Source of the DNA: Planctomycetota bacterium
GTDB taxonomy: Bacteria; Planctomycetota; SZUA-567; H5-PLA8
Direction: 5' to 3'
Assembly (NCBI GenBank): GCA_026184295.1
Contig: JAHCJK010000037.1
Coordinates: 1 to 38,048 of the forward strand
Length of the DNA stretch: 38,048 nucleotides
Numbering within the stretch: the first letter of the stretch is position 1; each line of letters begins with the position of its first letter. The position numbers and the translations under genes were made by a program. This document shows positions 23,140 through 38,048 of this stretch, piece after piece. The notes beneath the pieces are model-generated. The model saw only the letters and a list, made by a program, of their open reading frames with translations, did no database searches and was not told the DNA's origin.

Positions 23140-25485
23140 TTACGCTTCGGTCAGCTTGCGCAGCGCGCGCGTGCGGTTGAAGAACTCCTGCGGTTCCATC
23201 GCGATCAGGAAGTTCATCCCGCGCGAGGCGCGCATGCGCGGCACGGGGTGCTCGTAGAAGAACTCGCGGCCCAGGCAGTGCTGGAGCACGCTGCACTGGT
23301 TGACCATCACGCGCTGCGCCAGGTCGCAGAACGGCCCGTCGTACTCGTAGCTGGGGAAGCTGGCCGCGCGCTGCGAACCGTAACAGGTGTTGAAGGCGCT
23401 GCGCATCGTCGAGAGCGAGTTCATCGAGACCGGCACGTAGACGTTGGCTTCGGCCGGATGGAACTTGTACCAGACGTTGCGGTAGCCCCAGACTTCCACC
23501 TTGCGGTCGGGGAATTCCTGGAGGTACAGCTTCAGCGCCTCGCTCGTCGCTTGCAGGACCTTGTAGTGCGTGTCGGGGCCCGCGCCTTCCGGATCGAGCG
23601 TGACGGTGAGGATGTCCGGCTGCGTGTCTTTCAGCAGCTTCAGGATCGGCTCGACGTCGCGCTGCATCTCGGGCTGCGGCGTGAAGATGTCGCCGGTGTA
23701 AAAGCCCAGGCGCAGATGCGGGACGTGCTCGCAGTTGAAGCCCAGGTGCGCCCAGGTCAGTTCCTCTTCCCATTCGCGGAACATGCCCTTCAGGCGCTGC
23801 ACTTCCTTGGTGTCCTTCTGCCCGGGGTAGCGGCTCTTCAGGTACGCGGTCAGGCGGTCGATCTCGGCGCGGAGTTCCGCGGCGGTCCACTTGCCGGTCA
23901 GTTCGACGAGATTGCGGAGCAGGCGGCGCGCTTCGGATTCGTCCTTCATCTCCTGGCTGTTCGCGGCCACGCCGTCAAGGTGCAGGTAGATGTCCTCGTT
24001 CTTCTCCTGCAGGTTGCCGGGCGCGTATTCCTCGTTGATGCGGTCGAGCGTCAGGACGTTGCGGGCCAGGGCGCGCTCGAGCTTCTCGAAGATCGAGAGC
24101 ACGTAGCCGTTGGTCACGGAGGTGAAGCCGCTGGTCAGCGTCGCGAAGTAGTGCTTGTTCTTCGGGCTGCGGACCAGGTGGACGATGTAGGGCAGGTAGC
24201 CGAGCATGATGTCGTCGTGGTGCGGGCCGGTGTGCAGGAAGGTCACGCCCGCGATGTCCCGGGTGCCGCGGTCGATGCGTTCCTTGATGCGCTTGGTCAC
24301 GCCGTCGGCCAGCGTCTTCAGCGCCTTGGCGTCCTGCGGGAGGAAGTCGCCCAGGCGGTCCTTCTTCAGGTCCGCGGGAGTCACGTCGGACACGCGCTTG
24401 CGCGAGGCGTTCGCGATGTCGATGAGGATGCGTTCGCGTTCGACTTCGGGCAGTTCGGGGCCGAGGGCCTGGAGCTGCAGGCGGCGGCGTTCGATCAGCA
24501 GGCTGGCGGCGCCGCGGGTCAGGTAAAAACGCCCGCCGGGCACTGTCTGGAGGCAGGTCGCGGGGTAGTTCACCGAGACCGGGTTCTCGATCGCGTCGCG
24601 GACGACCTTGGCCTTGCTCTCGCCGGCGGCCATCACGATGGCGGTGACGGTGGGGTTGCCGGTGATGGTCTTCAGGCCGACGGTGACAACGACCTTGTCG
24701 CGGGCGACTTCGATGCCGCCCAGGTCCGTCGCGGACGCCGCCGCGGTCTCGTAGTTGATGGGGCTCAGGCGCGTGGTGCTGAAGTGGTCGGAGCCGCGGA
24801 TGTTGAAGCCGATGTGCCCGTCGGGCCCGATGCCGCCGAGGAAAAAGCCGATGCCGCCGAGTTCCTGGATGCGCCCTTCGAATTCCATCGCGGCCTGGTC
24901 GGCCCCGCCGATCGCCTGCGCCTGGAGCTGTTCGAGTTCGTTGCGCGGCGCGCGGTAGCGCAGCGAGAGGTCGATCTTGCCGCTGGGGAAGACCCAGTCG
25001 AGGTTGCGGCCGGCCGGCGCGCCGACGGTCCAGGTGTCCATCAGCAGCGCGCGCTTGGGGTCGAGCCCGAAGCCTTCCAGATAGAAACGCTTGATGTAGT
25101 GCCCGAAGCCGTTCTCGTGCTCGGGATTCATGGGGAAGAATTCGTCGATCTGGACGAAGCGCACCCCGGACATCTCGGGCTTGTGCGCGTGGTCCAGGCC
25201 CCAGGCGTCGAGTTCGGCCTGGATATCCTTCTTGTCCCACTCGCGCAGGATGCGCTGGGTCCACTTGATGAAGTGTTCCGGCGTCTTGCCCGTCGGCAGC
25301 GAGACCACGCCTTCGGGGTTGAGCTGGAGCCATTCGACGAAGCGCAGCGCGACGAGCTTGCCCATGGTCGGGAAGTCGGGCACTTCGACGATGCCGGCCT
25401 TTTCGGCGGGGGCGTACATGAGCTTGCGCCCGGCCTTTTCGAGGATGACGGTTTCGAGGTTGGAGTGGACGTTGTACGTTCGCAT
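23140..25485 (-). CDS. NagB-LmbE fusion: glucosamine-6-phosphate deaminase-like domain plus PIG-L-type deacetylase domain
   Basis: The 781-residue protein has an N-terminal NagB-like domain (about 20-340), with VSLPTGKTPEHF, VQIDEFFPMN (D114) and GGIGPDGHIGFN (D222, H224). A helical linker and a LmbE/PIG-L domain from about 405 follow, with the zinc-type motif PHHDD (421-425, in HTGPHHDDIMLG), CEHVPHLRLGFY and LDPEGAGPDTHYKVL. PIG-L enzymes remove acetyl groups from GlcNAc derivatives. The fusion could therefore deacetylate an acetylated amino sugar and then act on the product, replacing NagA. In the deaminase domain the relay Glu of NagB (FNE) is Ile (I229 in GFNIRGS), so its chemistry may differ. 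Long NagB-LmbE proteins of this kind also occur in Bacteroidetes. There is no signal peptide. The gene lies between the ROK regulator and nagB. Confidence 0.87.
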   Translation of the reverse strand: MRTYNVHSNLETVILEKAGRKLMYAPAEKAGIVEVPDFPTMGKLVALRFVEWLQLNPEGVVSLPTGKTPEHFIKWTQRILREWDKKDIQAELDAWGLDHAHKPEMSGVRFVQIDEFFPMNPEHENGFGHYIKRFYLEGFGLDPKRALLMDTWTVGAPAGRNLDWVFPSGKIDLSLRYRAPRNELEQLQAQAIGGADQAAMEFEGRIQELGGIGFFLGGIGPDGHIGFNIRGSDHFSTTRLSPINYETAAASATDLGGIEVARDKVVVTVGLKTITGNPTVTAIVMAAGESKAKVVRDAIENPVSVNYPATCLQTVPGGRFYLTRGAASLLIERRRLQLQALGPELPEVERERILIDIANASRKRVSDVTPADLKKDRLGDFLPQDAKALKTLADGVTKRIKERIDRGTRDIAGVTFLHTGPHHDDIMLGYLPYIVHLVRSPKNKHYFATLTSGFTSVTNGYVLSIFEKLERALARNVLTLDRINEEYAPGNLQEKNEDIYLHLDGVAANSQEMKDESEARRLLRNLVELTGKWTAAELRAEIDRLTAYLKSRYPGQKDTKEVQRLKGMFREWEEELTWAHLGFNCEHVPHLRLGFYTGDIFTPQPEMQRDVEPILKLLKDTQPDILTVTLDPEGAGPDTHYKVLQATSEALKLYLQEFPDRKVEVWGYRNVWYKFHPAEANVYVPVSMNSLSTMRSAFNTCYGSQRAASFPSYEYDGPFCDLAQRVMVNQCSVLQHCLGREFFYEHPVPRMRASRGMNFLIAMEPQEFFNRTRALRKLTEA

Positions 25486-25557: not shown

Positions 25558-26916
25558 TCAGCGGTCGCGCGTGGCCTGGCGGTTCATCGAAAGCCGCCGC
25601 CAGCGCGAGAGCCCCTGCTCGACTTCCTTCACCGACTGAAAGCGCTGCTTGCGACCGCGCTTGTCCGGCGGCTTCTCGGCCTCGTGCCCGACCTTGAGCG
25701 GGCGGCCTTCGGAGACGGCGAAGAGCTTTTCCGGCTCGTCGAAGAGGCTTTCGAAGATCAGCATCGAGCCGCCGATGGCGACGGCGTCGCGTCCGAGCGC
25801 CGAAATCTGGATGCGCGTCGGCTGCTGCAGAATGGGGAGGACCCGCGCGCGGAAAGTCCGCTCGATGGCCTCGTTGAAGACGCGGTAACCGTGCACGAGC
25901 ACCTCGCCGCCGAAGACGATGGTCTCGGGGTTGAAGAAGTTGACCAGGTTCGCGAGCCCCAGGCCGATGTACTCGGCCGCGCGCGTGACGACGTTGGTCG
26001 CCAGGCGGTCGCCCTCGTCGGCCGCGCGGAAGACGTTCTCGGCGCTGATCGACTTCAGGTTCAGGCTCGTGGCGCTGCCCATGCTCGACTGCACGCCCTT
26101 GCGGATCGCGTCGAGCGCCTGGTTGACCACCGCCGAAGGCGAGGCCAGGCTTTCCAGGCAGCCGTAGTTGCCGCAGTAGCAGATCGGCCCGGAAGGCTCC
26201 ACGATCGTGTGCCCGAACTCGCCCGCGTTGCGCGTCGCGCCCACGTACAGGCGGCCGTCCACTACGATCCCGCAGGCGATGCCGTGGCTGATGCTCAGGT
26301 AAAGGAGGTCGCGGGCTCCGCGCGCGCCGCCGTGGCGGCGTTCGGCCAGCGTGGCCGACTGGACGTCGTTGCCGAGCTGCGCGGGCAGGCCCAGGCGCTG
26401 CTCGAGCAACTGCGCGAGCGGCACGTCTTTCCAGAGTTCGCGGTGCGGGAACTCGCGCGAGATGCGCCCGTTCTCGTCCGTCAGCCCCGAGATGCCCAGG
26501 CCGACGCCGATGGGCTTGCGCTGGGCCGGCGCGCGGGACTTCAGCATCTCCGCGACCTGAAGCAGCGACTCGACCATCGCGTCCTTCTCGAGCGCGATCT
26601 CGTCGGGGCCCTGGACGCGGTCGAGCACGTTGCCGCCGAGGTCGGCCAGCACGCCGCGGATGCCGGTCAGGCCCATCTCGAGCCCGATGACGGTGGCGAA
26701 ACCGGGGTTGAGGATGAGCAGTTCGGCGCGGCGCCCGCCTTCGGACTTTTCGAAGCCGTCGCCGGTGATCAGCTTGGCGTCGATCAGTTCCTTGGTCAGG
26801 TTGGAGATCGTCGGGAGGTTGATGTCGAGGGATTCGGAGAGCATCGGGCGGCTGGCGCGTCCGAGTTCGCGAATCATGTCCAGGATGCGGACCTTGTTTT
26901 CGAATCGATTGGCCAT
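25558..26916 (-). CDS. ROK-family transcriptional repressor (NagC/Mlc-like)
   Basis: The 452-residue protein has a winged helix-turn-helix at about 22-50 (SRPMLSESLDINLPTISNLT) followed by a ROK domain. The zinc site of ROK proteins is complete: H236 in GEFGHT, and C246, C248 and C253 in ICYCGNYGCLE. The ATP-binding DxGGT motif is degenerate (GLEMGLTG), which fits a sugar-phosphate-sensing repressor rather than a kinase. The last 45 residues (KPPDKRGRKQRF onwards) are basic and extend beyond the family. ATG 26916 has AGGAA upstream; the frame is open to 26982 without similarity. It heads the cluster with the NagB-LmbE and nagB genes, so it most likely represses them and the divergent oxidoreductase until an amino-sugar phosphate binds. 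Confidence 0.9.
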   Translation of the reverse strand: MANRFENKVRILDMIRELGRASRPMLSESLDINLPTISNLTKELIDAKLITGDGFEKSEGGRRAELLILNPGFATVIGLEMGLTGIRGVLADLGGNVLDRVQGPDEIALEKDAMVESLLQVAEMLKSRAPAQRKPIGVGLGISGLTDENGRISREFPHRELWKDVPLAQLLEQRLGLPAQLGNDVQSATLAERRHGGARGARDLLYLSISHGIACGIVVDGRLYVGATRNAGEFGHTIVEPSGPICYCGNYGCLESLASPSAVVNQALDAIRKGVQSSMGSATSLNLKSISAENVFRAADEGDRLATNVVTRAAEYIGLGLANLVNFFNPETIVFGGEVLVHGYRVFNEAIERTFRARVLPILQQPTRIQISALGRDAVAIGGSMLIFESLFDEPEKLFAVSEGRPLKVGHEAEKPPDKRGRKQRFQSVKEVEQGLSRWRRLSMNRQATRDR

Positions 26917-27150
26917 GGTTGAGGTTCCTGAAGGCCCACGGAAAGATTGAATCGCTACGAAAACTTTATTATGTGAAATCACTCATAGCAAGGAGATTGT
27001 CGATAAAATCGTATTCTTTATATCTATATTATAATTAAGTATCGCTAATTTCGCTTTCGTTTCTCGCTAAACTGCGTTGATCTAACCGCTTGTCGAGTAT
27101 CATACGAGCCTTCCCCTGGCTTCTAAAACTCGATGGAAAGGGCTACCTTC
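26917..27150. promoter_or_regulatory. AT-rich divergent control region of the amino-sugar genes
   Basis: This 234-bp gap is sharply AT-rich, most of all at 26940-27050, in GC-rich surroundings. It separates the divergent ROK and oxidoreductase genes. TCGCTA occurs three times on the plus strand (26952-26957, 27042-27047, 27064-27069). For the oxidoreductase, TTGTCG (26997-27002) and TATCTA (27021-27026) with an 18-bp spacer are a possible promoter, and a TATAAT lies at 27030-27035. Operators of the ROK protein are expected here, but I cannot define a palindrome. No gene is seen. Confidence 0.5.
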
Positions 27151-28146
27151 ATGAGCACGCGCACGCGCTGGGCCATCCTGGGCACGGGCATGATCGCCCG
27201 CAAGGTCGCCGCCGCCGGCAAGCTCAGTTCCGAATACGCCCTCGCCGCCGTCGGCAGCCGCGACCTCCCCAAGGCCCAGGCCTTCGCCAAGGAGTTCGGC
27301 GACGCGGAGACCAAGGCCTACGGCAGCTACGAAGCGGTGCTCGCCGATCCCGCCGTCGAAGCCGTCTACATCAGTTTTCCCAATGCCATGCATCACGAAT
27401 GGACGATCCGCTGCGCGCAGGCCGGCAAGCACGTGCTCTGCGAAAAACCGCTGGCCGTCACGCCCGCGCAAGCCCAGGAGATGATCGCGGCCTGCCGCGA
27501 GCACCGCGTGCTGCTGATGGAAGCGTTCATGTACCGCTGCCATCCGGCGGCCTTCCTGATCAAGGAGACGGCGGCCTCGGGCGTGATCGGCGACCTGCGC
27601 TATATCCGTTCGAGCTTCTGCTTCGGCACCCCGGACCTCAAGAACGTGCGCATGAACTCCGACCTGCACGGCGGCGCGCTGATGGACGTCGGCTGCTACT
27701 GCGTGAACTTCTCGCGCTACATCTCGGGGCAGGAGCCGGTGGAAGTCGCCGCGGTCGCGGAGTTCGGCGCGCAGAGCAAGGTGGACGAGATCTTTACCGG
27801 GACGCTGCGCTTCGCGGGCAACGTCCACGCGCAGTTCCACGTCTCCTTTCACGGCAGCGGGTACCGCTCGACCGAGGTCATGGGCACGAAGGGCTTTCTG
27901 CGCATCGAGAACCCCTGGTTCGCGGGCGCCAACGAGTTCCTCGAAATCGTGGCCGGGAAGGACTCGAAGAAGATCCCCTTCCCCGCCGGCGACCGCTACC
28001 AGATCCAGTTCGAACTCTTTGGGCGGGCAATGCGCGGGCAGGGCGCGCTGCCGTTCGAGCCCGAGGACGGCCTGAACAACACCATCGCCATCGACGCGCT
28101 GCTCCAGGCGGCACGCACAGGTTCAGCGGTGCGGATCAAACGCTGA
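27151..28146 (+). CDS. Gfo/Idh/MocA-family NAD(P)-dependent oxidoreductase
   Basis: The 331-residue protein has the N-terminal Rossmann motif GTGMIA (residues 11-16). The family's CEKPLA motif, with catalytic K99, follows VEAVYISFPNAMHHEW. The C-terminal domain has MEAFMYRCHPAA and GGALMDVGCYCVNFSRYI (D179). These features resemble the glucose-fructose oxidoreductase / dihydrodiol dehydrogenase branch of the family, which oxidises or reduces sugars and polyols using a bound or free nicotinamide. The substrate is unknown. No signal peptide is present, so it is cytoplasmic. ATG 27151 has AAAGGG upstream and is preferred over ATG 27133. It is divergent from the ROK-nag cluster, so it probably belongs to the same sugar regulon. 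The GntR-LacI regulator follows 125 bp later. Confidence 0.88.
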   Translation: MSTRTRWAILGTGMIARKVAAAGKLSSEYALAAVGSRDLPKAQAFAKEFGDAETKAYGSYEAVLADPAVEAVYISFPNAMHHEWTIRCAQAGKHVLCEKPLAVTPAQAQEMIAACREHRVLLMEAFMYRCHPAAFLIKETAASGVIGDLRYIRSSFCFGTPDLKNVRMNSDLHGGALMDVGCYCVNFSRYISGQEPVEVAAVAEFGAQSKVDEIFTGTLRFAGNVHAQFHVSFHGSGYRSTEVMGTKGFLRIENPWFAGANEFLEIVAGKDSKKIPFPAGDRYQIQFELFGRAMRGQGALPFEPEDGLNNTIAIDALLQAARTGSAVRIKR

Positions 28147-28232
28147 GCGCATTTGAGCAGTCTGTTACCCCATTCACACGTGCAAAGTATTTAGAAACAA
28201 TGCTTTAAAAATTCTCATAAACATATATGTTT

Positions 28233-28256
28233 CCAGAGAACGACCCCGGTCTCTGG
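28233..28256. promoter_or_regulatory. Candidate operator or hairpin before the GntR-LacI regulator
   Basis: CCAGAGA (28233-28239) and TCTCTGG (28250-28256) are perfect inverted arms around 10 bp, 15 bp before the ATG at 28272. AT-rich sequence (28190-28228) precedes it, fitting a promoter. If the regulator started at ATG 28227 the repeat would be coding. An autoregulatory operator or an mRNA hairpin are both possible. Confidence 0.4.
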
Positions 28257-28271
28257 TGTATAGCTAGTATC

Positions 28272-29501
28272 ATGACGCCGCTGCCCTCCCAGCCAACATC
28301 CCCCCGCGCGCCCAAGCATCAGCGCGTGCGCGAGACGCTGCGCCGCCAGATCATGGAAGGGCTGTATCCCCCGGGTTCGGCGCTCCCGCCCGAGACCGAA
28401 CTCCCCAAGCGCCTGCGCGTCAGCAAGATCACGGTCGTGCGCGCGCTGAACGAGCTGGTGCGCGAAGGCCTGGTGGTGCGCCGCCGAGGGCGCGGCTCGT
28501 TCGTGGCCGATCCGGCGCAGCGCCCGCTGATCCCGGGGCGCTTCCTCAAGCTGGGCGTCCTGGTGCCGTTCTCGGTCTTTCCGGATTACCGGTACGGTTC
28601 GGCGCAGAACGAGATGCTGCGCGCGGCGCTGGCGACGTGGGGCATGGAACGGGCCGAGCCCGAGTTTCCCGGCGCGGCCGCCGACCAGGCCACGCAGGGG
28701 CGCTTCACCTGCGAGCCGCGGGGCTGCATGGTGAGCATGATGGGCGAAGAAGTGAGCGCGCACCCGATGCACCCGCCGCTCCAGGCGGTCAAGGCCGCGG
28801 GGTTGGACGGCATCCTGACGTGCAGCATCGTACAGGAAGCCTGGATGGCCGAACTGCTCGCGCTGGGCATCCCGACCGTGATCGTGGACTACCCGGCCGA
28901 ACGCTTCATCCTCCAGGCCGACCAGGTCTACTTCGATCCGCTGCCGGGCTACCGCGCGGCGGTGAACCACTTCGTCGCCGCGGGCCTGAAGCGCATCCAT
29001 TTCGTCGGCGGGCTGATCCACAAGCCGTTCGGGCGCTACGAAGACCGCCCCCGCGGCGACGCGTATTACACGCCGGAACACACGCAGCGCGACCCGGACA
29101 GTTTTCTGCGCCTGGCCGCGTGGCGCGAGACCATGACCCAGCACGGCCTGGACGCGCCCGAATCGAACGTGCACTACGCCTGGTCCGAAGGGAAGCACGC
29201 CGCCGAGACCGCGCTGCGCCTCGCGGACCTGCCCGCGGACCGGCGCCCGCAGGCGGTGGTCTGCCACGGCCTGGGGCAGGCGCAGGCGGTGCTCGAAGTG
29301 TTCGCCACGCGCGGGCTGCCGGTGATGACCGCCGGCGCGACCGATGCCGCGGGCCACGGCCCCGCGCTGCGCATCGTCGCGTCCAACGCGGACCTGGGAC
29401 GCACGGCGGCCTCGCTGTTGCTCTGGAAACTTCAACTTCCCTCGCGCCTGCCGCTGCGGGTGGGCGTGCCGATGGCACTTTCGAAGGAGAGCGTACGATG
29501 A
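28272..29501 (+). CDS. GntR-LacI hybrid transcriptional regulator (AraR-like architecture)
   Basis: The 409-residue protein has a GntR winged helix at about 15-79 (KHQRVRETLRRQIMEGLYPP; PPETELPKRLRVSKITVVRA; RRRGRGSFVADP). A periplasmic-binding-protein-like sensor domain of LacI type fills the rest (LKLGVLVPFSVFPDYR; LDGILTCSIVQEAW; IPTVIVDYPAERF; GLKRIHFVGGLIH; QAVVCHGLGQA). AraR of Bacillus has this layout and responds to a sugar. The ligand is unknown. Neither ATG 28272 nor ATG 28227 has a good ribosome site; 28272 is preferred because it starts close to the conserved domain and leaves the inverted repeat at 28233 non-coding. Its stop overlaps the start of the first propeller gene (ATGA), so regulator and propeller proteins are co-transcribed and translationally coupled. 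Confidence 0.88.
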   Translation: MTPLPSQPTSPRAPKHQRVRETLRRQIMEGLYPPGSALPPETELPKRLRVSKITVVRALNELVREGLVVRRRGRGSFVADPAQRPLIPGRFLKLGVLVPFSVFPDYRYGSAQNEMLRAALATWGMERAEPEFPGAAADQATQGRFTCEPRGCMVSMMGEEVSAHPMHPPLQAVKAAGLDGILTCSIVQEAWMAELLALGIPTVIVDYPAERFILQADQVYFDPLPGYRAAVNHFVAAGLKRIHFVGGLIHKPFGRYEDRPRGDAYYTPEHTQRDPDSFLRLAAWRETMTQHGLDAPESNVHYAWSEGKHAAETALRLADLPADRRPQAVVCHGLGQAQAVLEVFATRGLPVMTAGATDAAGHGPALRIVASNADLGRTAASLLLWKLQLPSRLPLRVGVPMALSKESVR

Positions 29502-32119
29502 TGGGAGTTCGAACGGTCCTGGCGTGCGCCGCGATGCTGCTGGCCGGAAGCCTGCTGGCGGGCGACGTCCGCTTTGCGACGCCGCCTTCGGCGAAGCAGA
29601 ACGGCGGACAGACGGAGATCGCCTTCGCGCTGGCCGCGGCCGGCGACGTGGAAGTGGCGGTGCTGAACGCCAAGGGGGACGTCGTGCGGCATCTGGCCGC
29701 GGGCGTGCTGGGCGGGGACAAGGCGCCGCCCGAGCCGCTCAAGGCGGGCCTGAGCCAGACGCTGGCGTGGGACGGCAAGGACGACTTCGGCAAGGCCGCG
29801 CAGGGCGGGCCGTTCAAAGTGCGGGTGCGCGCGGGCCTGGGCGTCAAGTTCGGGCGGCTGCTCGGCGCGGATCCCTACAACTTCGGCAGCATCGACAGCG
29901 TGGTCGGCGACGAGGACGGCAACGTCTACATCGCGGGTTCGCGCGGCGAATCGAACCAGATGGCGATGTGCGTGCGCGTCTTCGACGCCGAAGGGCGCTA
30001 CCTGCGCGAGATCGTGCCCTTTCCCGCCACGGCCGCGCCGGGCTCGATGAAGGACATCGCGCGCTGGGACGAGGAGGCCAAGACGTTCTACCCGCGCAAC
30101 CTGCGCAACCTCAACCCGGACTTTTACGGCCAGCCCGGCGGCACCTGGGGCAACGCCGCGCTCAAACTGCTCAGCGCGTCGAAGAAGAACGGCGTGATCC
30201 TGACCGACGGCGCGCGGCTCTTCGCGATCACCGCCGAAGGCCAGGTGCGCGACGATAAGTCCGTCATCCGCAACCTGGGCGGCGCGAAGAATTCCGGCGG
30301 CGGCCCGTCGCACGTGGCGATCTCGCCCGACGGCAAGTGGGTCTACCTCTCCGGGCCGTACAGCAACACCAACCGTTACGGCTATAAGTACGAACCCGCG
30401 TTTCCGCCCGGGCGCGTGTACCGCACGCCCCTGGCCGGCTCCGACAAGTTTTCCGAATTCGCCACCGTCGAGGTGGCCCACACGGAAGGCAACGGCGGCG
30501 CGTGGGAAAAGTCCGCCAAGGCGCTCCAGCATTTCACCGAGCCCAAGGGCCCGCTGATGGGCATGGCCGTGGACGCCAAGGGCCAGGTGTACGTCGCCGA
30601 CCGCGAACACGGCTGCGTGGCCGTCTTCGACGAGAACGCGAAGCGGATCGGCAAGATCGACGTCGTCAACCCGAACCTCGTCGCCATCCACCCCAAGTCC
30701 GGCGCGATCTACGTCACGCAGCTCGACTGCGTCGGCTACGGCGTCTTTCAGTGCACGCTGCTCAAGTTCGAGAACTTCCAGGACGGGGCGAAGCCGGTCG
30801 CGACGTACGATTTCCCGCAGGGGAACAACGCCAACCGCAACCAGAGCATGGCGCTGGCGGCGGGCAAGGACAAGACGGTGGTCTGGGTCGGCGGGGTGAA
30901 GGGCGGCCTGGCGCAGTTGGAGGACAAGGGGTCCTCGTTCGAACTCCTGCAGAACAAGTTCGTCCAGAAGGAGAGCATCCCGCGCGACTGGTACCGCCTG
31001 GCCGCCGACTACGACAAGGACACGATCTACCTCTCCAACGGCACCAACCGCATCTGGAAGTACGACGGGCTGAGCGGCGAGGGCGACCTGCTGAAGCAGG
31101 CCGACGGGAAGCCTTTCCACGGCACCGACCTGGCGGTGGGCTACGACGGCCTGCTGTACGTGCGCACGGGTTCCGGGTACTCCGGCCCGATGGAACGCTA
31201 CAACCGCGACCTGACGCCCGCGCCGTACGCGGCCACGGGCACCCACGTGCTGAGCGGCTACATTTACAGCCGCATGGGCTGCGGCTTCGCCGAACGCGGC
31301 CTGGGCGTGGGCCCGGACGGTTCGTGCTACATCACCTTCATGTACAAGTGGGTCGCGTACGCGGTGGGCGCCTTCGGGCCCGACGGCAAGCCGCGCAACG
31401 GCAAGTACCTGGCGGGCAAGTTTCCCACGCCGCCGCTCCCCGAAGGCAAGAAGCCGGAAAAGAGCCAAACGTATCCGGAGGACTGGAAGACCGCGATCAT
31501 CGGCCCGGTGCCGTCGATGTCGGCCAACCTGCGCGTGGACCTGAAGGGCAACATCTACCTCGGCATGATGTACCGGCCCAAGGATTTCACGCCGGCCAAG
31601 GGCTTCGAAAAGGACCAGGGCTACCGCGTCTCGGTCGGCAGCGTGGTCAAGTTCGGGCCCGAAGGCGGCGAGATGCCCGGCGACGAAGGCGCGCCCTCCG
31701 CGGCGAGCCTGAACGGCGTGCTGAACACCTACCCGGGCCTCGCCCCCTTCAGCAGCTCGGCCGAAGCCTTCGGCGGGAACACCTGCTGCGTCTGCCGCGT
31801 CCCGCGCTTCGACCTCGACCGCTACGGCCGCCTGGCGCTGCCCAACGCGATCACCAACTCGGTGCTGATCTACGACAACGCCGGCAACCTGATTCTGGAA
31901 TTCGGCAAGTACGGCAACTTCGATTCGCAGTACGTCAACCCGAACCTGGAAAGCGGCAAGCAGAACAAGCCCACCGCCGGGGTCCCCGAGATCCCGCTCG
32001 CCTGGCCCACCGGCGCGGGCTTTTCGGAAAAGCACATCTACGTCAACGACACCTACAACCGCCGCGCCGTGCGCGTGGACACGACCTACGCCGCCGAAGC
32101 CACCGCCGACGTGAAGTGA
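29498..32119 (+). CDS. Secreted FlgD-Ig / beta-propeller protein, paralogue 1
   Basis: The 873-residue protein has a signal peptide (about 1-21, ending LLA before GDVRF). A FlgD-type Ig-like domain follows at about 30-115 (VAVLNAKGDVVRHLAAGVLG; LAWDGKDDFGKAAQGGPFKV). Many propeller-like repeats come next, such as VVGDEDGNVYIAGSRG, MAVDAKGQVYVADREHG and RIWKYDGLSGEGDLL. Near the end is an invariant motif CCVCRVPRFDLDRYGRLALP (C763, C764, C766), then AWPTGAGFSEKHIYVNDTYN. NHL-type propellers bind proteins, glycans or RNA; no catalytic residue set is recognised. It is the first of three tandem paralogues. ATG 29498 overlaps the regulator's stop (ATGA), with AAGGAG 8 bases upstream. Function unknown; the GntR-LacI partner suggests a carbohydrate-related role. 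Confidence 0.82.
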   Translation: MMGVRTVLACAAMLLAGSLLAGDVRFATPPSAKQNGGQTEIAFALAAAGDVEVAVLNAKGDVVRHLAAGVLGGDKAPPEPLKAGLSQTLAWDGKDDFGKAAQGGPFKVRVRAGLGVKFGRLLGADPYNFGSIDSVVGDEDGNVYIAGSRGESNQMAMCVRVFDAEGRYLREIVPFPATAAPGSMKDIARWDEEAKTFYPRNLRNLNPDFYGQPGGTWGNAALKLLSASKKNGVILTDGARLFAITAEGQVRDDKSVIRNLGGAKNSGGGPSHVAISPDGKWVYLSGPYSNTNRYGYKYEPAFPPGRVYRTPLAGSDKFSEFATVEVAHTEGNGGAWEKSAKALQHFTEPKGPLMGMAVDAKGQVYVADREHGCVAVFDENAKRIGKIDVVNPNLVAIHPKSGAIYVTQLDCVGYGVFQCTLLKFENFQDGAKPVATYDFPQGNNANRNQSMALAAGKDKTVVWVGGVKGGLAQLEDKGSSFELLQNKFVQKESIPRDWYRLAADYDKDTIYLSNGTNRIWKYDGLSGEGDLLKQADGKPFHGTDLAVGYDGLLYVRTGSGYSGPMERYNRDLTPAPYAATGTHVLSGYIYSRMGCGFAERGLGVGPDGSCYITFMYKWVAYAVGAFGPDGKPRNGKYLAGKFPTPPLPEGKKPEKSQTYPEDWKTAIIGPVPSMSANLRVDLKGNIYLGMMYRPKDFTPAKGFEKDQGYRVSVGSVVKFGPEGGEMPGDEGAPSAASLNGVLNTYPGLAPFSSSAEAFGGNTCCVCRVPRFDLDRYGRLALPNAITNSVLIYDNAGNLILEFGKYGNFDSQYVNPNLESGKQNKPTAGVPEIPLAWPTGAGFSEKHIYVNDTYNRRAVRVDTTYAAEATADVK

Positions 32120-32144
32120 CGGCGCCGAACCTCAGGAGACGGCC

Positions 32145-34760
32145 ATGAAGATCGCGCTTCCTTTCTTGATGACGGCCCTGCTCGCCTCGGGCGCCCTCGC
32201 GGGCGAACCGTCGTTCTCCAACCCGCCCGCGGCCAAGAAGAACGGTTCGGAGGCCACGGTCGCGTTCGCGGTGAGCGCGAGCACCGACATCGAGGTCTCG
32301 GTGCTGAACGCCAAGGGCGACGTCGTGCGGCATCTCGCCGCGGGCGTGCTGGGCGGCGAAAAGCCCCCGCCCCCGCCGCTCAAGCCGGGCCTGAGCCAGA
32401 CGGTGGCGTGGGACGGGACGGACGATTTCGGCAAGCCGGCGCAGGGCGGGCCGTTCAAGTTCCGCGTGCGCGCGGGCTCGAAGTTCAAGTTCGGGCGCTT
32501 CATCGGCGAGGACCCGTACACGTTCGGCTCGGTGGACGGACTGGCCAGCGACGAGGAAGGCAACCTGTACATCAGTTCGTACGCGGGGACGCACAATCAG
32601 GGCGCGCGGACGGTGCGCGTCTACGACGGGCAGGGGCGCTACCTGCGCGAACTGGCGCCCTTTCCCGCCAGCGTGGACCCCGCGGGCATGAAGGACGTGG
32701 CGCGCTGGGACGCGCAGGCCAAGGTCTGGCGTCCGACCAACCGCTCGTGCCTGAACCCCGATTTCTACAACTGCCCCGGCGCGGCGCTCGTCTCGGCCTC
32801 GAAGTCCAACGGCGTCTTCCTCGCCGACCGCAACGACGTCTACGCGCTCAACGAGGACGGCAGCGTGAAGGGCGCGGCCGTGGGCACCAAGCAGAAGCCC
32901 TGGCCGACCTTCGACGCCAAAAACGGCGAAAACAACCACTACGGGCATCCCTGGCACTACCACGAAGGCGTCGAATGCTTCTCGGCCTCCCCCGACGGCA
33001 AGTGGCTGTACCTCGCCGGGCCCGTCCCGAACGCCGAGAAGCGCAAGAAGGAAGACCCGCGCTTCCCGCTCGGCGGCGTCTACCGCATGCGCCTGGACGG
33101 CAAGGACGAGATGAAGCTCTTCGTCTCGCTGCCGATCCCCTTCGACGGTGCCTGGGCCAAGGAAGGCGGGAAGATCTACGGGCGCACGGGCCCGATCCAC
33201 TTCGTCGGCGCCGACGCGAAGAACAACGTCTACGTCCCCGACCGCAACGGGAACCGCGTGGTGGTCTACTCCGAAGACGGCAAGCAGATCGGCGAAGTGA
33301 GCGTCAAGAATCCGCAGCAGATCGTCGCGCATCCGCGCACCGGCGCGTTTTACGTCCTGCGCATGGTCTGCAACGGCTGGTGCACGCACGCGATGGCCGT
33401 GGAGAAGTTCGACAGCTTCGCGCCGGGCAGCAAGCCCAGCGCCGTCTACGACAAGTTCCCGAACAAGGTCTCGCCGCGCATCACGGTGACGCAAAGCGGC
33501 ACGCGCACGCTGGTCTGGATCGCCGGCCTGCCGGAAGGGATGATCGCCCTGGAGGACAAGGGCAGCGCGCTGGCGCCCGTGGAGACCGGCTACAAGCGCA
33601 ATCCCGACGCCCAGATCGACTGGAACCGCCTGGCCGTGGACTACGGGCGCGACGAACTCTACGTCGCCGACGGCGGCAACCAGATCTGGCGCTACGACGG
33701 GAAGACCGGCGAAGGCGGGCTGTTGAAGCGCAAGAACGGCCAGAAGGTCGCGGCCGTGGACCTGGCCGTCGGCTACGACGAACTGCTCTACATCCGCACG
33801 GGCGAAGGCTTCACCGGGCCGCTGGAACGCTACACGCGCGACCTGGAACCCGCGCCGTATCCGGGCGGCACGCACGTGATCAGCCCCACGATCTACAGCC
33901 GCTTCGGCGTCGGCAACTGCGAGAAGGGCGTCGGCGTCGGGCCCAAGGGCGAAGTGTACATCTCCTTCATGTACGACTGGACCCTGTACGCGGTCGGCGG
34001 CTTCGGCGGCGACGGCAAGGCGCTGAAGGGCCTGTACCTGGATGGTAAGTTCCCCGCGAAGGGCGACGGCCTGAAGGGCTACCCGCCCGAACTGCGGACC
34101 TCCATGATCGGCCCGATCACGGCCGCTGGCGGCGGGGTGCGCGTGGACCTGCAGGGCAACATCTACCTGGGGCTGGACGTGAAGCCCGCCGGCTACGCGA
34201 TGCCCGGCTTCCTGAAGGGCGACGCGGTCGGCGAACGCTGGTACACGAGCATCGTCAAGTTCGGGCCCAAGGGCGGCGCGATCCTGGGTATCAAGGACAG
34301 CGAGAGCAAGCAGCCCGAGGCGCCCAAGATCGAGCTCGAGAACAAGCTGACGGCGGAGAACGCGCTGAACATCTACCCGGGCCTCGGCCCGGTCAGCGGC
34401 CCGGGGCCGGGCGGGAACAGTTCGTGCTGCGTCTGCCGCGTCCCGCGCTTCGACGTCGATCGCTTCGGGCGGCTGGTCATGCCCAGCGCGTTCGCGGCCA
34501 ACGTGCTCATGTACGACAATGCGGGCAACAAGATCGCCGAACTGGGCGCCTACGGCAACTTCGACTCGCAGTACGTGAACCCGAACACCGAGGCCGGCAA
34601 GCAGAAGAAGCCGACCATCGCCTCGCCCGAAATCCCGCTCGCCTGGCCCACGGGCGCGGGCGTCAGCGAGAACCACATTTACATCAACGACACCTACAAC
34701 CGCCGCATCGTGCGCGTGGACAAGGCGTTCTCCGCCGAGGCACTGGCCGACGTGAAGTAA
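32145..34760 (+). CDS. Secreted FlgD-Ig / beta-propeller protein, paralogue 2
   Basis: The 871-residue protein repeats the layout of its neighbour: signal peptide (MKIALPFLMTALLASGALA), FlgD-type Ig domain (VSVLNAKGDVVRHLAAGVLG; VAWDGTDDFGKPAQGGPFKF), propeller repeats (LASDEEGNLYISSYAGTHNQ; QIWRYDGKTGEGGLL) and the C-terminal CCVCRVPRFDVDRFGRLVMP motif (C761, C762, C764). Compared with paralogue 1 it has a distinct central insert around KQKPWPTFDAKNGENNHYGH and extra Cys in MVCNGWCTH. The Ig domain and the last 100 residues are the best conserved parts, and the propeller loops diverge most, as expected if the loops bind different ligands. AGGAG lies 6 bases before the ATG. It follows paralogue 1 by 25 bp and precedes paralogue 3 by 13 bp. 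Confidence 0.82.
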   Translation: MKIALPFLMTALLASGALAGEPSFSNPPAAKKNGSEATVAFAVSASTDIEVSVLNAKGDVVRHLAAGVLGGEKPPPPPLKPGLSQTVAWDGTDDFGKPAQGGPFKFRVRAGSKFKFGRFIGEDPYTFGSVDGLASDEEGNLYISSYAGTHNQGARTVRVYDGQGRYLRELAPFPASVDPAGMKDVARWDAQAKVWRPTNRSCLNPDFYNCPGAALVSASKSNGVFLADRNDVYALNEDGSVKGAAVGTKQKPWPTFDAKNGENNHYGHPWHYHEGVECFSASPDGKWLYLAGPVPNAEKRKKEDPRFPLGGVYRMRLDGKDEMKLFVSLPIPFDGAWAKEGGKIYGRTGPIHFVGADAKNNVYVPDRNGNRVVVYSEDGKQIGEVSVKNPQQIVAHPRTGAFYVLRMVCNGWCTHAMAVEKFDSFAPGSKPSAVYDKFPNKVSPRITVTQSGTRTLVWIAGLPEGMIALEDKGSALAPVETGYKRNPDAQIDWNRLAVDYGRDELYVADGGNQIWRYDGKTGEGGLLKRKNGQKVAAVDLAVGYDELLYIRTGEGFTGPLERYTRDLEPAPYPGGTHVISPTIYSRFGVGNCEKGVGVGPKGEVYISFMYDWTLYAVGGFGGDGKALKGLYLDGKFPAKGDGLKGYPPELRTSMIGPITAAGGGVRVDLQGNIYLGLDVKPAGYAMPGFLKGDAVGERWYTSIVKFGPKGGAILGIKDSESKQPEAPKIELENKLTAENALNIYPGLGPVSGPGPGGNSSCCVCRVPRFDVDRFGRLVMPSAFAANVLMYDNAGNKIAELGAYGNFDSQYVNPNTEAGKQKKPTIASPEIPLAWPTGAGVSENHIYINDTYNRRIVRVDKAFSAEALADVK

Positions 34761-34773
34761 AAGGAGGAACTCG

Positions 34774-37374
34774 ATGCTGCGCGCATTCTCGATCCTGATC
34801 CTGTTCGCCGGTTCGCTGGGCTGGGCCGCGGACGTGTCCTTTGCCACGCCGCCAAGCGCCCGGAAGGACGGCGACAAGACCACGATCGCCTTCGCGGTCT
34901 CCGCCCGCACCGACGTCGAAGTCGCGGTGCTCGACGCCAAAGGCGGGATCGTGCGGCACCTCGCCGCGGGCGTGCTGGGCGGGGAACAGGCGCCGCCGCC
35001 GCCGCTGAAGGCGGGCTTGAGCCAGTCGCTGGCGTGGGACGGCAAGGACGACTTCGGCAAGCCGGCGCAGGGCGGGCCGTTCAAAGTGCGGGTGCGCGCG
35101 GGGATGCGCGTGGCCTTCGGGCGCTTTCTCGGCGGGGACACCTGCCGCTTCGGGACCGTCAACGGCATGGCCACCGACGCCGACGGCACGCTGTACGTCT
35201 CCGGGTTCATCGGCGAGACCAACCAGAACATGATCACCGTGCGGGCCTTCGCGCCCGACGGCGGGTACCGGCGCACGCTGCTGCCGTTCCCGGCCGACCT
35301 GAAGCCCGAACAGTTGAAGGGCATCGCCGAATTCGACGCGTCGAAGAAGGGCTGGATTCCCAACAACCAGAACAGCCTGAACCCGACCTTTTATCCCTGG
35401 GGCACGGCCGACGCGAACGTGATCGCGGCGACGCGTTCGGCGGTGACGCTGGCCAGCGGCATGACGGTCTTCCGCTTCGACCCGCGCGGCGGGCTGATCG
35501 ACGGGCCCTCGCCCATGTGGTCGCCGGCCGCGAAACTGAAGTGCCCCACGTGGCTGCGCATCCAGGTGGCGGCCTCGCCCGACGGCAAGTACCTGTACTA
35601 TTCGAACGTCGCGGGCACCGTCTACCAGCCGAAGAGCTTCAAGGACACCGATCCCAACTGGCCGCAGGGGCGCGTCTACCGCCAGGAGGTCGGTTCGGGC
35701 AAGGACCCGCAGCCGTTCTACGACCTGGAACTGCCCGACTGGGAGAAGCAGAAATACTGGCTGCCCGACGCGTGGAATAAGCGCACCGCCGCCTACGGCC
35801 TGTGCGTGGACGCCAAGGGACACGTGTACGTCTGCGACCTGGTCAACCAGGGCATCGTGGAAGTGGGCCCCGACGGCAAGAAGATCGGCTTTACCAAAGC
35901 GCCCTGGCCCGAACGCGTGCACGTGGACGAAGCCAGCGGCGCGTACTACGTCGTCAGCCGCCTGGAGCAGCCCAAGGACGGCCAGGTGCTGAAGAAGCTG
36001 GTCAAGATCGCCGGGCGCGGCGACGCGGGCAGGATCGCCGCGGAATTCCCCTTCACGCAGCACGGCGTGGGCGAAGCCACCGCGCTGGGGACCATGGACG
36101 GCAAGCCGGTGCTCTGGGCCGGCGGCGGCGGCGAACTGCTCTGCATCCGCGACGCCGGCGCGAAGCTGGAACTCGTCGCGACCAAGTTCAAGCCCGACCC
36201 CGAATCGCAGCCCGATTACAACCGCCTCTGCGCCGATCCCGTGCGCGACCAGGTCTACGTCAACACCGGCACCAACCGCATCTGGCGCTACGACGGCAAG
36301 ACCGGGCAGGGCGAACTCCTGAAGGACAAGGGCAAGGTCTTTTACGCGACCGACCTGTCCGTGGGGTACGACGGGAACCTGTACATCCGTTCGGGCGAAG
36401 GCTACAGCGGCCCGCTGGAACGCCGCGACACGGAACTCAAGCCCGTCCCCTACGCCGCCACGGGCTCGCACGTGCTCACGCCGTACGTCTACAGCCGCAT
36501 GGGCGTGGGCTTCAGCGAACACGGCATCGGCGTCGGGCCGGACGACCGCTGCCTCTTCATCTTCATGTACGGCTGGAACAAGTACTGCATCTCGGCCTTC
36601 GGCGGCAACGGCAAGGCGCAGCCGGGGAACTACCTGAAAGGCAAGGTGAACGAGCCCGACCCCAAGACGGGCAAGCGCCCGATGCCGGAAGAGATCAACT
36701 CCGCGGTGATCGGCCCGCTGCCGATGTCCAACGGAGGCCTGCGCATCGATCCGCAGGGGAACATCTACGTCGGCATGCGCCTTTCGCCCGAGGCCGCCGG
36801 CGCGCCGCCGGGCTTCGAAAAGAACAACGCGTACAAGAGCTGGATCGGGTGCGTGGTGAAGTTCCCGCCCGAAGGCGGCACGGTGCTGAACACCGAGGCC
36901 AAGGAAGACCAGGGCGCGGCGGAAGGGACGCGCGTGCCGGTCGTTCACGCCGGGATGAAGATGGAACTCGTCAACGCGCTGAAGATCTACCCGGGGGTCG
37001 GATCGTTCAGCGGGGGCGGCTGGGGCGGGAACAGTTCGTGCTGCGTCTGCCGCGTGCCGCGCTTCGACGTGGACCGCTTCGGGCGGCTGGCGCTGCCCAA
37101 CGTGGTCACCAACAGCGTCACGATTCTCGACAACGCCGGCAACGAGATCCTCACTTTCGGCAAGTACGGGAACTTCGACTCGCAGTTCCGGAACCCCTAC
37201 GCGGAAGGCAGCGCCAAGGACCAGCCCGCGATCGCGGAGCCCGAAATCCCGCTCGCCTGGCCCACGGGCACCGGCTTCAGCGAGAAGCACGTCTACGTCA
37301 ACGACACCTACAACCGCCGCGTCGTCCGCGTGGACAAGGCCTACGGCGCCGAAGCGCTCGCCGACGTGAAGTAG
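34774..37374 (+). CDS. Secreted FlgD-Ig / beta-propeller protein, paralogue 3
   Basis: The 866-residue protein has a signal peptide (MLRAFSILILFAGSLGWA), a FlgD-type Ig domain (VAVLDAKGGIVRHLAAGVLG; LAWDGKDDFGKPAQGGPFKV) and propeller repeats (MATDADGTLYVSGFIGETNQ; LCVDAKGHVYVCDLVNQG; RIWRYDGKTGQGELL). The shared CCVCRVPRFDVDRFGRLALP motif (C756, C757, C759) and the same AWPTGTGFSEKHVYVNDTYN ending follow. Its ribosome site, AAAGGAGG 6 bases before the ATG, is the strongest of the three genes. Stretches of high DNA identity with paralogues 1 and 2 cover the Ig domain and the C-terminus, pointing to duplication followed by divergence of the middle. It ends 22 bp from a convergent LacI-type regulator. 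Function unknown; a secreted or surface role is inferred from the signal peptide. Confidence 0.82.
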   Translation: MLRAFSILILFAGSLGWAADVSFATPPSARKDGDKTTIAFAVSARTDVEVAVLDAKGGIVRHLAAGVLGGEQAPPPPLKAGLSQSLAWDGKDDFGKPAQGGPFKVRVRAGMRVAFGRFLGGDTCRFGTVNGMATDADGTLYVSGFIGETNQNMITVRAFAPDGGYRRTLLPFPADLKPEQLKGIAEFDASKKGWIPNNQNSLNPTFYPWGTADANVIAATRSAVTLASGMTVFRFDPRGGLIDGPSPMWSPAAKLKCPTWLRIQVAASPDGKYLYYSNVAGTVYQPKSFKDTDPNWPQGRVYRQEVGSGKDPQPFYDLELPDWEKQKYWLPDAWNKRTAAYGLCVDAKGHVYVCDLVNQGIVEVGPDGKKIGFTKAPWPERVHVDEASGAYYVVSRLEQPKDGQVLKKLVKIAGRGDAGRIAAEFPFTQHGVGEATALGTMDGKPVLWAGGGGELLCIRDAGAKLELVATKFKPDPESQPDYNRLCADPVRDQVYVNTGTNRIWRYDGKTGQGELLKDKGKVFYATDLSVGYDGNLYIRSGEGYSGPLERRDTELKPVPYAATGSHVLTPYVYSRMGVGFSEHGIGVGPDDRCLFIFMYGWNKYCISAFGGNGKAQPGNYLKGKVNEPDPKTGKRPMPEEINSAVIGPLPMSNGGLRIDPQGNIYVGMRLSPEAAGAPPGFEKNNAYKSWIGCVVKFPPEGGTVLNTEAKEDQGAAEGTRVPVVHAGMKMELVNALKIYPGVGSFSGGGWGGNSSCCVCRVPRFDVDRFGRLALPNVVTNSVTILDNAGNEILTFGKYGNFDSQFRNPYAEGSAKDQPAIAEPEIPLAWPTGTGFSEKHVYVNDTYNRRVVRVDKAYGAEALADVK

Positions 37375-37396: not shown

Positions 37397-38048
37397 TTAC
37401 GCCTTCGGCGCGACGAAGGAATGCCGTTCGCGCCAGACGCAGGGGACGCGCACCTGCGGCGCGGGCGAGGTCCAGCGGGCGAACAGCCGCGCGGCCTCCA
37501 GCCCCAGCACTTCAAAGTCGCACGCCGGACCCGAATAGGGCGACGGCGCGCGCTGGTTCTGAAAGCAGACGATCCCGAAATCCCGAGGGACCTCGCGGCC
37601 CATCTCCCGCGCGGCCCGCTCGAGAACCTCCGCGACGGTCCCGTCGGCGCAGACGGCGGCGGTGTAGGCCGGCTGGGCCTTGAAGACCGGCCGCAGCGGA
37701 TACGTCGGCAGCGACTTTTCCGGCAGCATGTTGAAGACGGCCTCGTTGCGCGCGGGCAGGCCGGCCTCCTTCAGCGCCGCGAAGTACCCTTCCATGCGTT
37801 CGCGCGAGTCCGGATCGACGTCGGCGAGGTGGTAGAGCACGCGCCGCACGAACGCGATGCGGCGGTGCCCCGCGGCGGCCAGCCGCAGCACGGCGTCGCG
37901 CGCGGCTGCGCGGTTGTCCACGCTCACCGAACCCAGTTTGCGCCCGAACGGCACGTGATCGGCCAGCACCACGCGCAGGCCGAGCGCCTCGTAGTCGCGC
38001 AGCGTCGCCGGCAAATAATGGTCGAGCAGCACGATGCCCTTCAGCGGC
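37397..38048 (-). CDS. LacI-type transcriptional regulator, ligand-binding domain (5' part outside the window)
   Basis: The frame is open to the right edge, and the visible 216 residues are the C-terminal part of a LacI/GalR-family sensor domain. Hallmarks are GLRVVLADHVPFGRKLGSVS, VDNRAAARDAVLRLAAAGHR, RRIAFVRRVLYH, YTAAVCADGTVAEVLERAAR, and VPRDFGIVCFQNQ. This domain binds a sugar or related small molecule. The DNA-binding part lies beyond 38048, so LacI and GntR-LacI types cannot be told apart. Apart from the partial end, no disruption is visible. It is convergent with the third propeller gene, so two sugar-type regulators flank the propeller operon. Confidence 0.85.
   Translation of the reverse strand, partial: PLKGIVLLDHYLPATLRDYEALGLRVVLADHVPFGRKLGSVSVDNRAAARDAVLRLAAAGHRRIAFVRRVLYHLADVDPDSRERMEGYFAALKEAGLPARNEAVFNMLPEKSLPTYPLRPVFKAQPAYTAAVCADGTVAEVLERAAREMGREVPRDFGIVCFQNQRAPSPYSGPACDFEVLGLEAARLFARWTSPAPQVRVPCVWRERHSFVAPKA

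Follow-up and report, generated by a model that had tools for sequence, protein, structure and literature searches.

The window examined here, a 38,048-nucleotide stretch of Planctomycetota DNA that makes up the entire contig C294 of a 6.39-Mb genome with 362 contigs, carries a gene for a GntR-LacI hybrid regulator followed directly by three tandem genes for secreted propeller proteins, hereafter paralogues A, B and C. We judge it somewhat probable that an AraR-type autorepressor gates this operon and that the most likely task of the secreted proteins is to capture or process a glycan outside the cell. Regulation of the operon by the AraR-type regulator is well supported in silico, and a glycan function for A-C is suggested indirectly by the LacI-type sensor and by GH123-like and Kelch co-operon partners. 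The operon and its control region comprise the following features.

28219-28232, no strand: predicted operator palindrome AAACATATATGTTT with core ACATATATGT; perfect palindrome, core kept before the orthologous operons of G001 and G004
28242-28251, no strand: putative degenerate second palindrome GACCCCGGTC, read directly from the sequence; centre 21 bp from that of the first
28254-28261, + strand: TGGTGTAT box, probable promoter element (TGGTGTA enrichment near hybrid regulator starts)
28272-29501, + strand: AraR-like chimeric regulator, 409 amino acids (aa) (Pfam, including a Pfam scan of the own genome; PDB profile matches 4egy and 3tb6)
28320-28505, + strand: GntR helix-turn-helix of the regulator (Pfam)
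28962-29324, + strand: LacI-type sensor of the regulator (Pfam)
29498-32119, + strand: secreted Ig/NHL-propeller paralogue A, 873 aa (Pfam, AlphaFold2, alignment)
about 29573-29851, + strand: Ig-like domain of paralogue A
30953-32116, + strand: C-terminal NHL half of paralogue A
31787-31795, + strand: CxC of paralogue A (C764, C766)
32145-34760, + strand: secreted paralogue B, 871 aa; orthologues in G001 (81%) and G004 (L088)
34774-37374, + strand: secreted paralogue C, 866 aa; orthologues in G001 (68%) and G004 (L089)

All four genes lie on one strand, with the regulator stop TGA (29499-29501) overlapping the ATG of paralogue A at 29498 (ATGA) and with gaps of 25 bp between A and B and 13 bp between B and C. 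The original prediction had described three tandem paralogues of 866-873 residues behind a GntR-LacI hybrid with an ATGA overlap, and both the coordinates and Pfam agree with this description; at about 870 aa, the proteins hardly merit its word "giant".

Inspection of the regulator reveals a GntR domain (PF00392, 64.5 bits against a curated cut-off of 27) joined to a Peripla_BP_3 domain (PF13377, 37.1 bits, cut-off 26.5), and a PDB profile search matches these parts to the DNA-binding (4egy) and effector (3tb6) domains of AraR. AraR of Bacillus subtilis is an established GntR/LacI chimera that works via palindromic boxes, two at some promoters (PMC4494728, PMC4218819). The window regulator shares with it the N-terminal GntR winged helix, the LacI-type sensor and the palindromic operators, paired at some AraR promoters, and the sugar-controlled regulon of AraR takes in polysaccharide degradation. 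The two differ in their operators, where both word and symmetry are unlike (ACN6GT here, At(T/A)tGTaCGTAcaa(A/T)T for AraR), and in their targets, which here are secreted propeller proteins. The sites found here also sit at a single operon, which starts with the regulator gene or has it close to the start, and dozens of hybrids occur per genome.

The predicted operator, which the original prediction had not noticed, provides the strongest evidence for this regulatory wiring. Upstream of the regulator, the perfect palindrome AAACATATATGTTT has no second exact copy in the genome and is the only match in the window at up to 3 mismatches, where 0 are expected. Orthologous operons of three genomes, drawn from two genera, carry its core ACATATATGT on their upstream side. 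In G001, the second genome from this genus, two copies spaced 22 bp apart precede the syntenic regulator, and in G004, from another genus of the same family, two operons are each preceded by a single copy. The second palindrome keeps the 21-22 bp spacing seen between perfect sites arranged in tandem in L081 and L078, and the TGGTGTAT box comes after the ACATATATGT core. Gene calls in relatives came from a home-made codon-usage caller, and the starts it gives may be off. TGGTGTA stands near the start of 18 of 94 hybrid regulators versus 7 of 685 other genes (Fisher p 1.5e-12), and a perfect ACN6GT palindrome near the start of 14 of 31 regulators in the clade of the window regulator versus 16 of 811 other genes (p 3e-14). 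We limit the operator claim to this clade because the hybrids outside it lack this operator type (1/63 with a perfect ACN6GT palindrome). A strict operator pattern searched across 17 genomes returned 16 sites, 11 of them with palindromic or near-palindromic cores; all 11 fall in the roughly 100 bp before a clade regulator or, in one case (G004, L088), before an operon-heading Kelch gene, and the remaining five look like chance. Away from the local operon, one near match was seen in the own genome (C124:19567, one off-symmetry base) and one in G004 (C1:2233631).

The centre of the palindrome appears to vary together with the recognition helix of the regulator. The helix SKIT pairs with ACATATATGT in 4 of 4 cases, although the four SKIT regulators are close homologues and thus do not represent four independent events. 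S(S/N/D)(T/S)T pairs with a GC palindrome centre and G(K/N)QT with a CG centre, a covariation read from 16 sequences without phylogenetic correction.

We infer DNA binding, repression, the class of effector and the glycan function. When the effector is absent, the GntR-LacI repressor would bind the palindrome at 28219-28232 and, more weakly, the one 21 bp downstream, beside the TGGTGTAT promoter box, and would thereby silence both its own gene and the three downstream genes that share the transcript. Binding of a small sugar or sugar acid to the LacI-type domain would release the repressor from DNA, such that the three secreted proteins, each with an Ig-like domain and two propeller-like halves, would be made together. 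A, B and C would each take a different glycan linkage or fragment, with the released sugar serving as inducer.

The original prediction had coupled a sugar-type regulator to the paralogue genes, and this adjacency recurs in other genomes. Hybrids make up 31 of 142 nearest non-family neighbours versus 6 of 235 genes at a distance of four or more genes (p 2e-9; odds ratio 10.7, about ten-fold enrichment); the loci were chosen for holding the family, which limits the sample and leaves the distance comparison unbiased. The hybrid profile was built from neighbours, and the coupling was rechecked with independent Pfam scans of the own genome, where a hybrid adjoins 6 of 6 family loci uncut by contig ends. 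All ten adjacent regulators tested by Pfam carry both GntR and Peripla_BP_3. Coupling of the hybrid to the family is frequent rather than universal: among all sampled loci, a hybrid lies within two genes in 36 of 90 family runs. The original prediction had raised the counter-case that homologues are usually single genes without a regulator; this does not describe the home family, and in the whole sample 65 of the 90 runs consist of one gene and the other 25 are tandem.

Behind most clade regulators, another gene on the same strand lies within about 100 bp, and it often has a signal sequence (family, Kelch and others). By a crude rule for signal peptides, 45 of 66 genes directly behind hybrids carry one, and with family members excluded the count is 26 of 46 versus 220 of 699 elsewhere (p 0.001). 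Separately, very large secreted proteins of 1834 aa (L163:10235-15739) and 1712 aa (L170:2458-7596) stand directly behind regulators of the same clade. The operon at G004 L088:11590-13944 consists of a Kelch gene, a regulator and a family gene, with a ACATATATGT operator before the Kelch gene; this order and operator directly link Kelch and NHL propeller proteins.

Comparison between genomes indicates that the triplet is not a chance arrangement, since it is conserved in the same order and with its regulator in G001 (L081/L040). The family itself is patchy, being found in 14 of 294 Planctomycetota genomes (profile search, E at most 1e-40), yet strongly expanded in those that have it, and 129 genes match its profile in the fetched loci. 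Paralogues A, B and C are 48-52% identical pairwise. Between the own genome (G000) and G001, orthologue identities are 74, 81 and 68% for A, B and C, respectively, versus 45-54% among paralogues, and the ratios of nonsynonymous to synonymous substitution rates (dN/dS) of about 0.27, 0.19 and 0.37 denote purifying selection. A tree of 54 rows groups each of A, B and C with a G001 orthologue; for B and C the grouping extends to genes of G004. The G004 orthologues of B and of C sit far from one another, and each locus has the same operator as here and a regulator closely homologous to that of the window (57% and 55% identical). The orthologue grouping, identities and dN/dS values together indicate that the A, B and C lines are older than the genus split and have been kept apart since, which in turn argues for distinct roles.

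All three paralogues begin with a hydrophobic N-terminal signal sequence and end in a common ...AE(A/T)xADVK. NHL (PF01436) exceeds its cut-off of 20 bits in each (25.7, 21.8 and 25.5 for A, B and C), whereas FlgD_ig (PF13860) falls slightly below its curated cut-off of 27 in all three (26.8, 23.7 and 22.9 bits). The signal peptide, propeller repeats and shared C-terminal ending of the original prediction are thus borne out, and its FlgD-type Ig domain is marginal. The AlphaFold2 model of A (mean predicted local distance difference test, pLDDT, 85.9; predicted template modelling score, pTM, 0.90) places an all-beta domain with high confidence at the N terminus and many short strands after it. 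Modelled alone (pLDDT 81.0, pTM 0.86), the C-terminal half of A matches six-bladed NHL propellers, with template modelling (TM) scores of 0.57-0.66 by target length for most matches to NHL and designed propellers, and each paralogue likely contains two propeller-like halves. No functional reading was taken from the full-length fold search of A, which returned only generic tandem propellers (TM-scores 0.14-0.36 by query length).

Among known NHL-repeat propellers (TRIM71, Thin, the PknD sensor and the SGL family), the NHL repeats and six-bladed-type fold are common with the C-terminal half here; the window proteins differ in being secreted, in carrying two propeller-like halves behind an Ig-like domain, in their conserved CxC and in their regulator-linked tandem arrays. 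The scytonemin-cluster NHL proteins ScyD, ScyE and ScyF have weak NHL-level sequence likeness to the paralogues but are unlike them in length and gene context, and identity with them was rejected because scores fall far under the NCBIfam model cut-offs (at most 39.1 bits versus 350, and 31.6 versus 80). A PVC-type heme-binding CxxCH identity was likewise rejected (12.7 bits in one copy versus a cut-off of 122.2; the conserved motif is CxC), as was similarity to hydrazine synthase, with scores far under cut-offs.

The genomic surroundings of the family hint at carbohydrates, which is indirect evidence as regards the ligand-specific binding or lectin-like role that the original prediction had suggested. 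Its 87 co-operon neighbours include 24 Kelch propellers, seven GH123-like domains and one GH130. GH123-like genes number 59 in G011 (RA.bin114), 17 in G007 and 4-8 in the home family; in G011 the approximately 59 copies are co-expanded with the propeller family (for example L104-L114). With its local sugar-type regulator and secreted carbohydrate-related neighbours, the arrangement resembles polysaccharide utilization loci (PULs) and carbohydrate-active enzyme (CAZyme) clusters. It differs from them in having few classical CAZymes and no SusC/SusD, of which none appears among the 25 commonest of 67 families matched by the co-operon neighbours or among the scanned window genes. To the knowledge of the authors of PMC11131199, no carbohydrate cluster has been functionally characterised in Planctomycetota.

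Several observations weigh against the proposed glycan-gated operon. Most of the GH123-like matches cover just part of the profile (positions about 2-160 of 324), the GH123 partners come chiefly from one expanded genome, and family loci carry no consistently linked transport, uptake or complete catabolic genes. An amino-sugar reading drawn from the nagB, ROK and MocA neighbours was rejected, as their synteny is kept within the genus only and they are not retained beside the G004 orthologues, which weakens that hint. About half of the clade regulators lack a perfect operator by the ACN6GT test, and the regulator may possibly activate instead of repress. Furthermore, the sequence evidence fits glycan binding and catalysis alike.

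This last point bears on whether A-C could be enzymes (lyase, lactonase or dehydrogenase-like) that act on sugars or sugar acids with the CxC as a metal or redox site, rather than lectins, which we regard as somewhat unlikely. The CxC is the only conserved cysteine pair in the family, and across 104 divergent members its two cysteines occur in 93% and 92%; SGL/gluconolactonase (PF08450) exceeds its cut-off of 26.3 bits in A and C (20.8 in B; coverage partial); and the fold neighbours of the C-terminal NHL-type propeller include the lactonase 8djf and the virginiamycin B lyase 2z2o. These fold matches are, however, generic for propellers, with binding domains (TRIM/Thin NHL) and designed propellers ranking highest. 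No catalytic set of a known kind was recognised in A-C, and the CxC is missing in about 7-8% of members. An alternative that we consider unlikely holds that the family forms a variable cell-surface or matrix coat of adhesins, expanded for surface variation, with sugar-type regulators choosing the coat. It would account for the large paralogue expansions seen as WDGxDD motif matches (45 in G003, 59 in G011 and 28 in G007, versus 0-2 per genome for the reversed pattern; the motif also picks up other FlgD_ig-like proteins) and for expanded copies that often have their own regulator and operator word. Against a coat, A, B and C behave as stable 1:1 lines under purifying selection rather than rapid turnover, and their C termini, read by eye, show no anchor, sorting signal or transmembrane segment.

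The pairing itself might be an accident of two expanded families meeting, with the regulator being a general local regulator of secreted proteins. The own genome does hold 65 PF13377 and 57 PF00392 matches, and clade regulators head Kelch and other secreted genes too, but the ten-fold adjacency enrichment and the conservation of operator and triplet order between genomes make an accident very improbable.

Beyond the single operon, we tentatively propose a repertoire of private AraR-type switches, an idea that we find plausible though short of probable. An ancestral regulator and its operator would have been copied many times, helix and palindrome centre would have diverged together, preventing cross-talk, and each copy would control a separate set of secreted propellers (NHL/Ig or Kelch). 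If true, this would constitute a modular glycan-sensing and foraging system of undescribed design, distinct from Sus-type PULs. Both component families, GntR/LacI hybrids and NHL propellers, are already known; we found no published description of the recurrent wiring, the clade-specific operator with its varying centre, the conserved triplet or the family in a search outside of which most subscription journals lay. Hypothetical proteins become part of a testable regulatory system that comprises a candidate repressor, its predicted 14-bp operator, operons under putative shared control in several genomes and a predicted helix-to-operator rule. The effector of the regulator would in turn point to the substrate of a large uncharacterised family of secreted proteins.

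Three further genes flank the operon.

25558-26916, - strand: ROK/NagC-type regulator, divergent syntenic neighbour (Pfam, synteny)
27133-28146, + strand: Gfo/Idh/MocA oxidoreductase, syntenic neighbour and only a putative member of the system (Pfam; same position in L081)
37397-38047, - strand: second LacI-type sensor gene, convergent and cut by the contig end (PF13377, 61.1 bits)

The Gfo/Idh/MocA gene, which keeps its position in L081, has no counterpart next to the orthologous operons in G004. A 781-aa protein encoded between nagB and the ROK regulator (23140-25485, - strand) has no Pfam match at 1e-5 and is missing between the corresponding genes of G001. The second LacI-type gene scores 150 with the hybrid-regulator profile; at the matching spot, G001 has a GntR-LacI hybrid, which shows no close kinship to it (41 bits), and a fourth, divergent family gene. 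Elsewhere in the own genome, an M14 zinc carboxypeptidase gene lies directly downstream of a family gene (L076:8149-9366).

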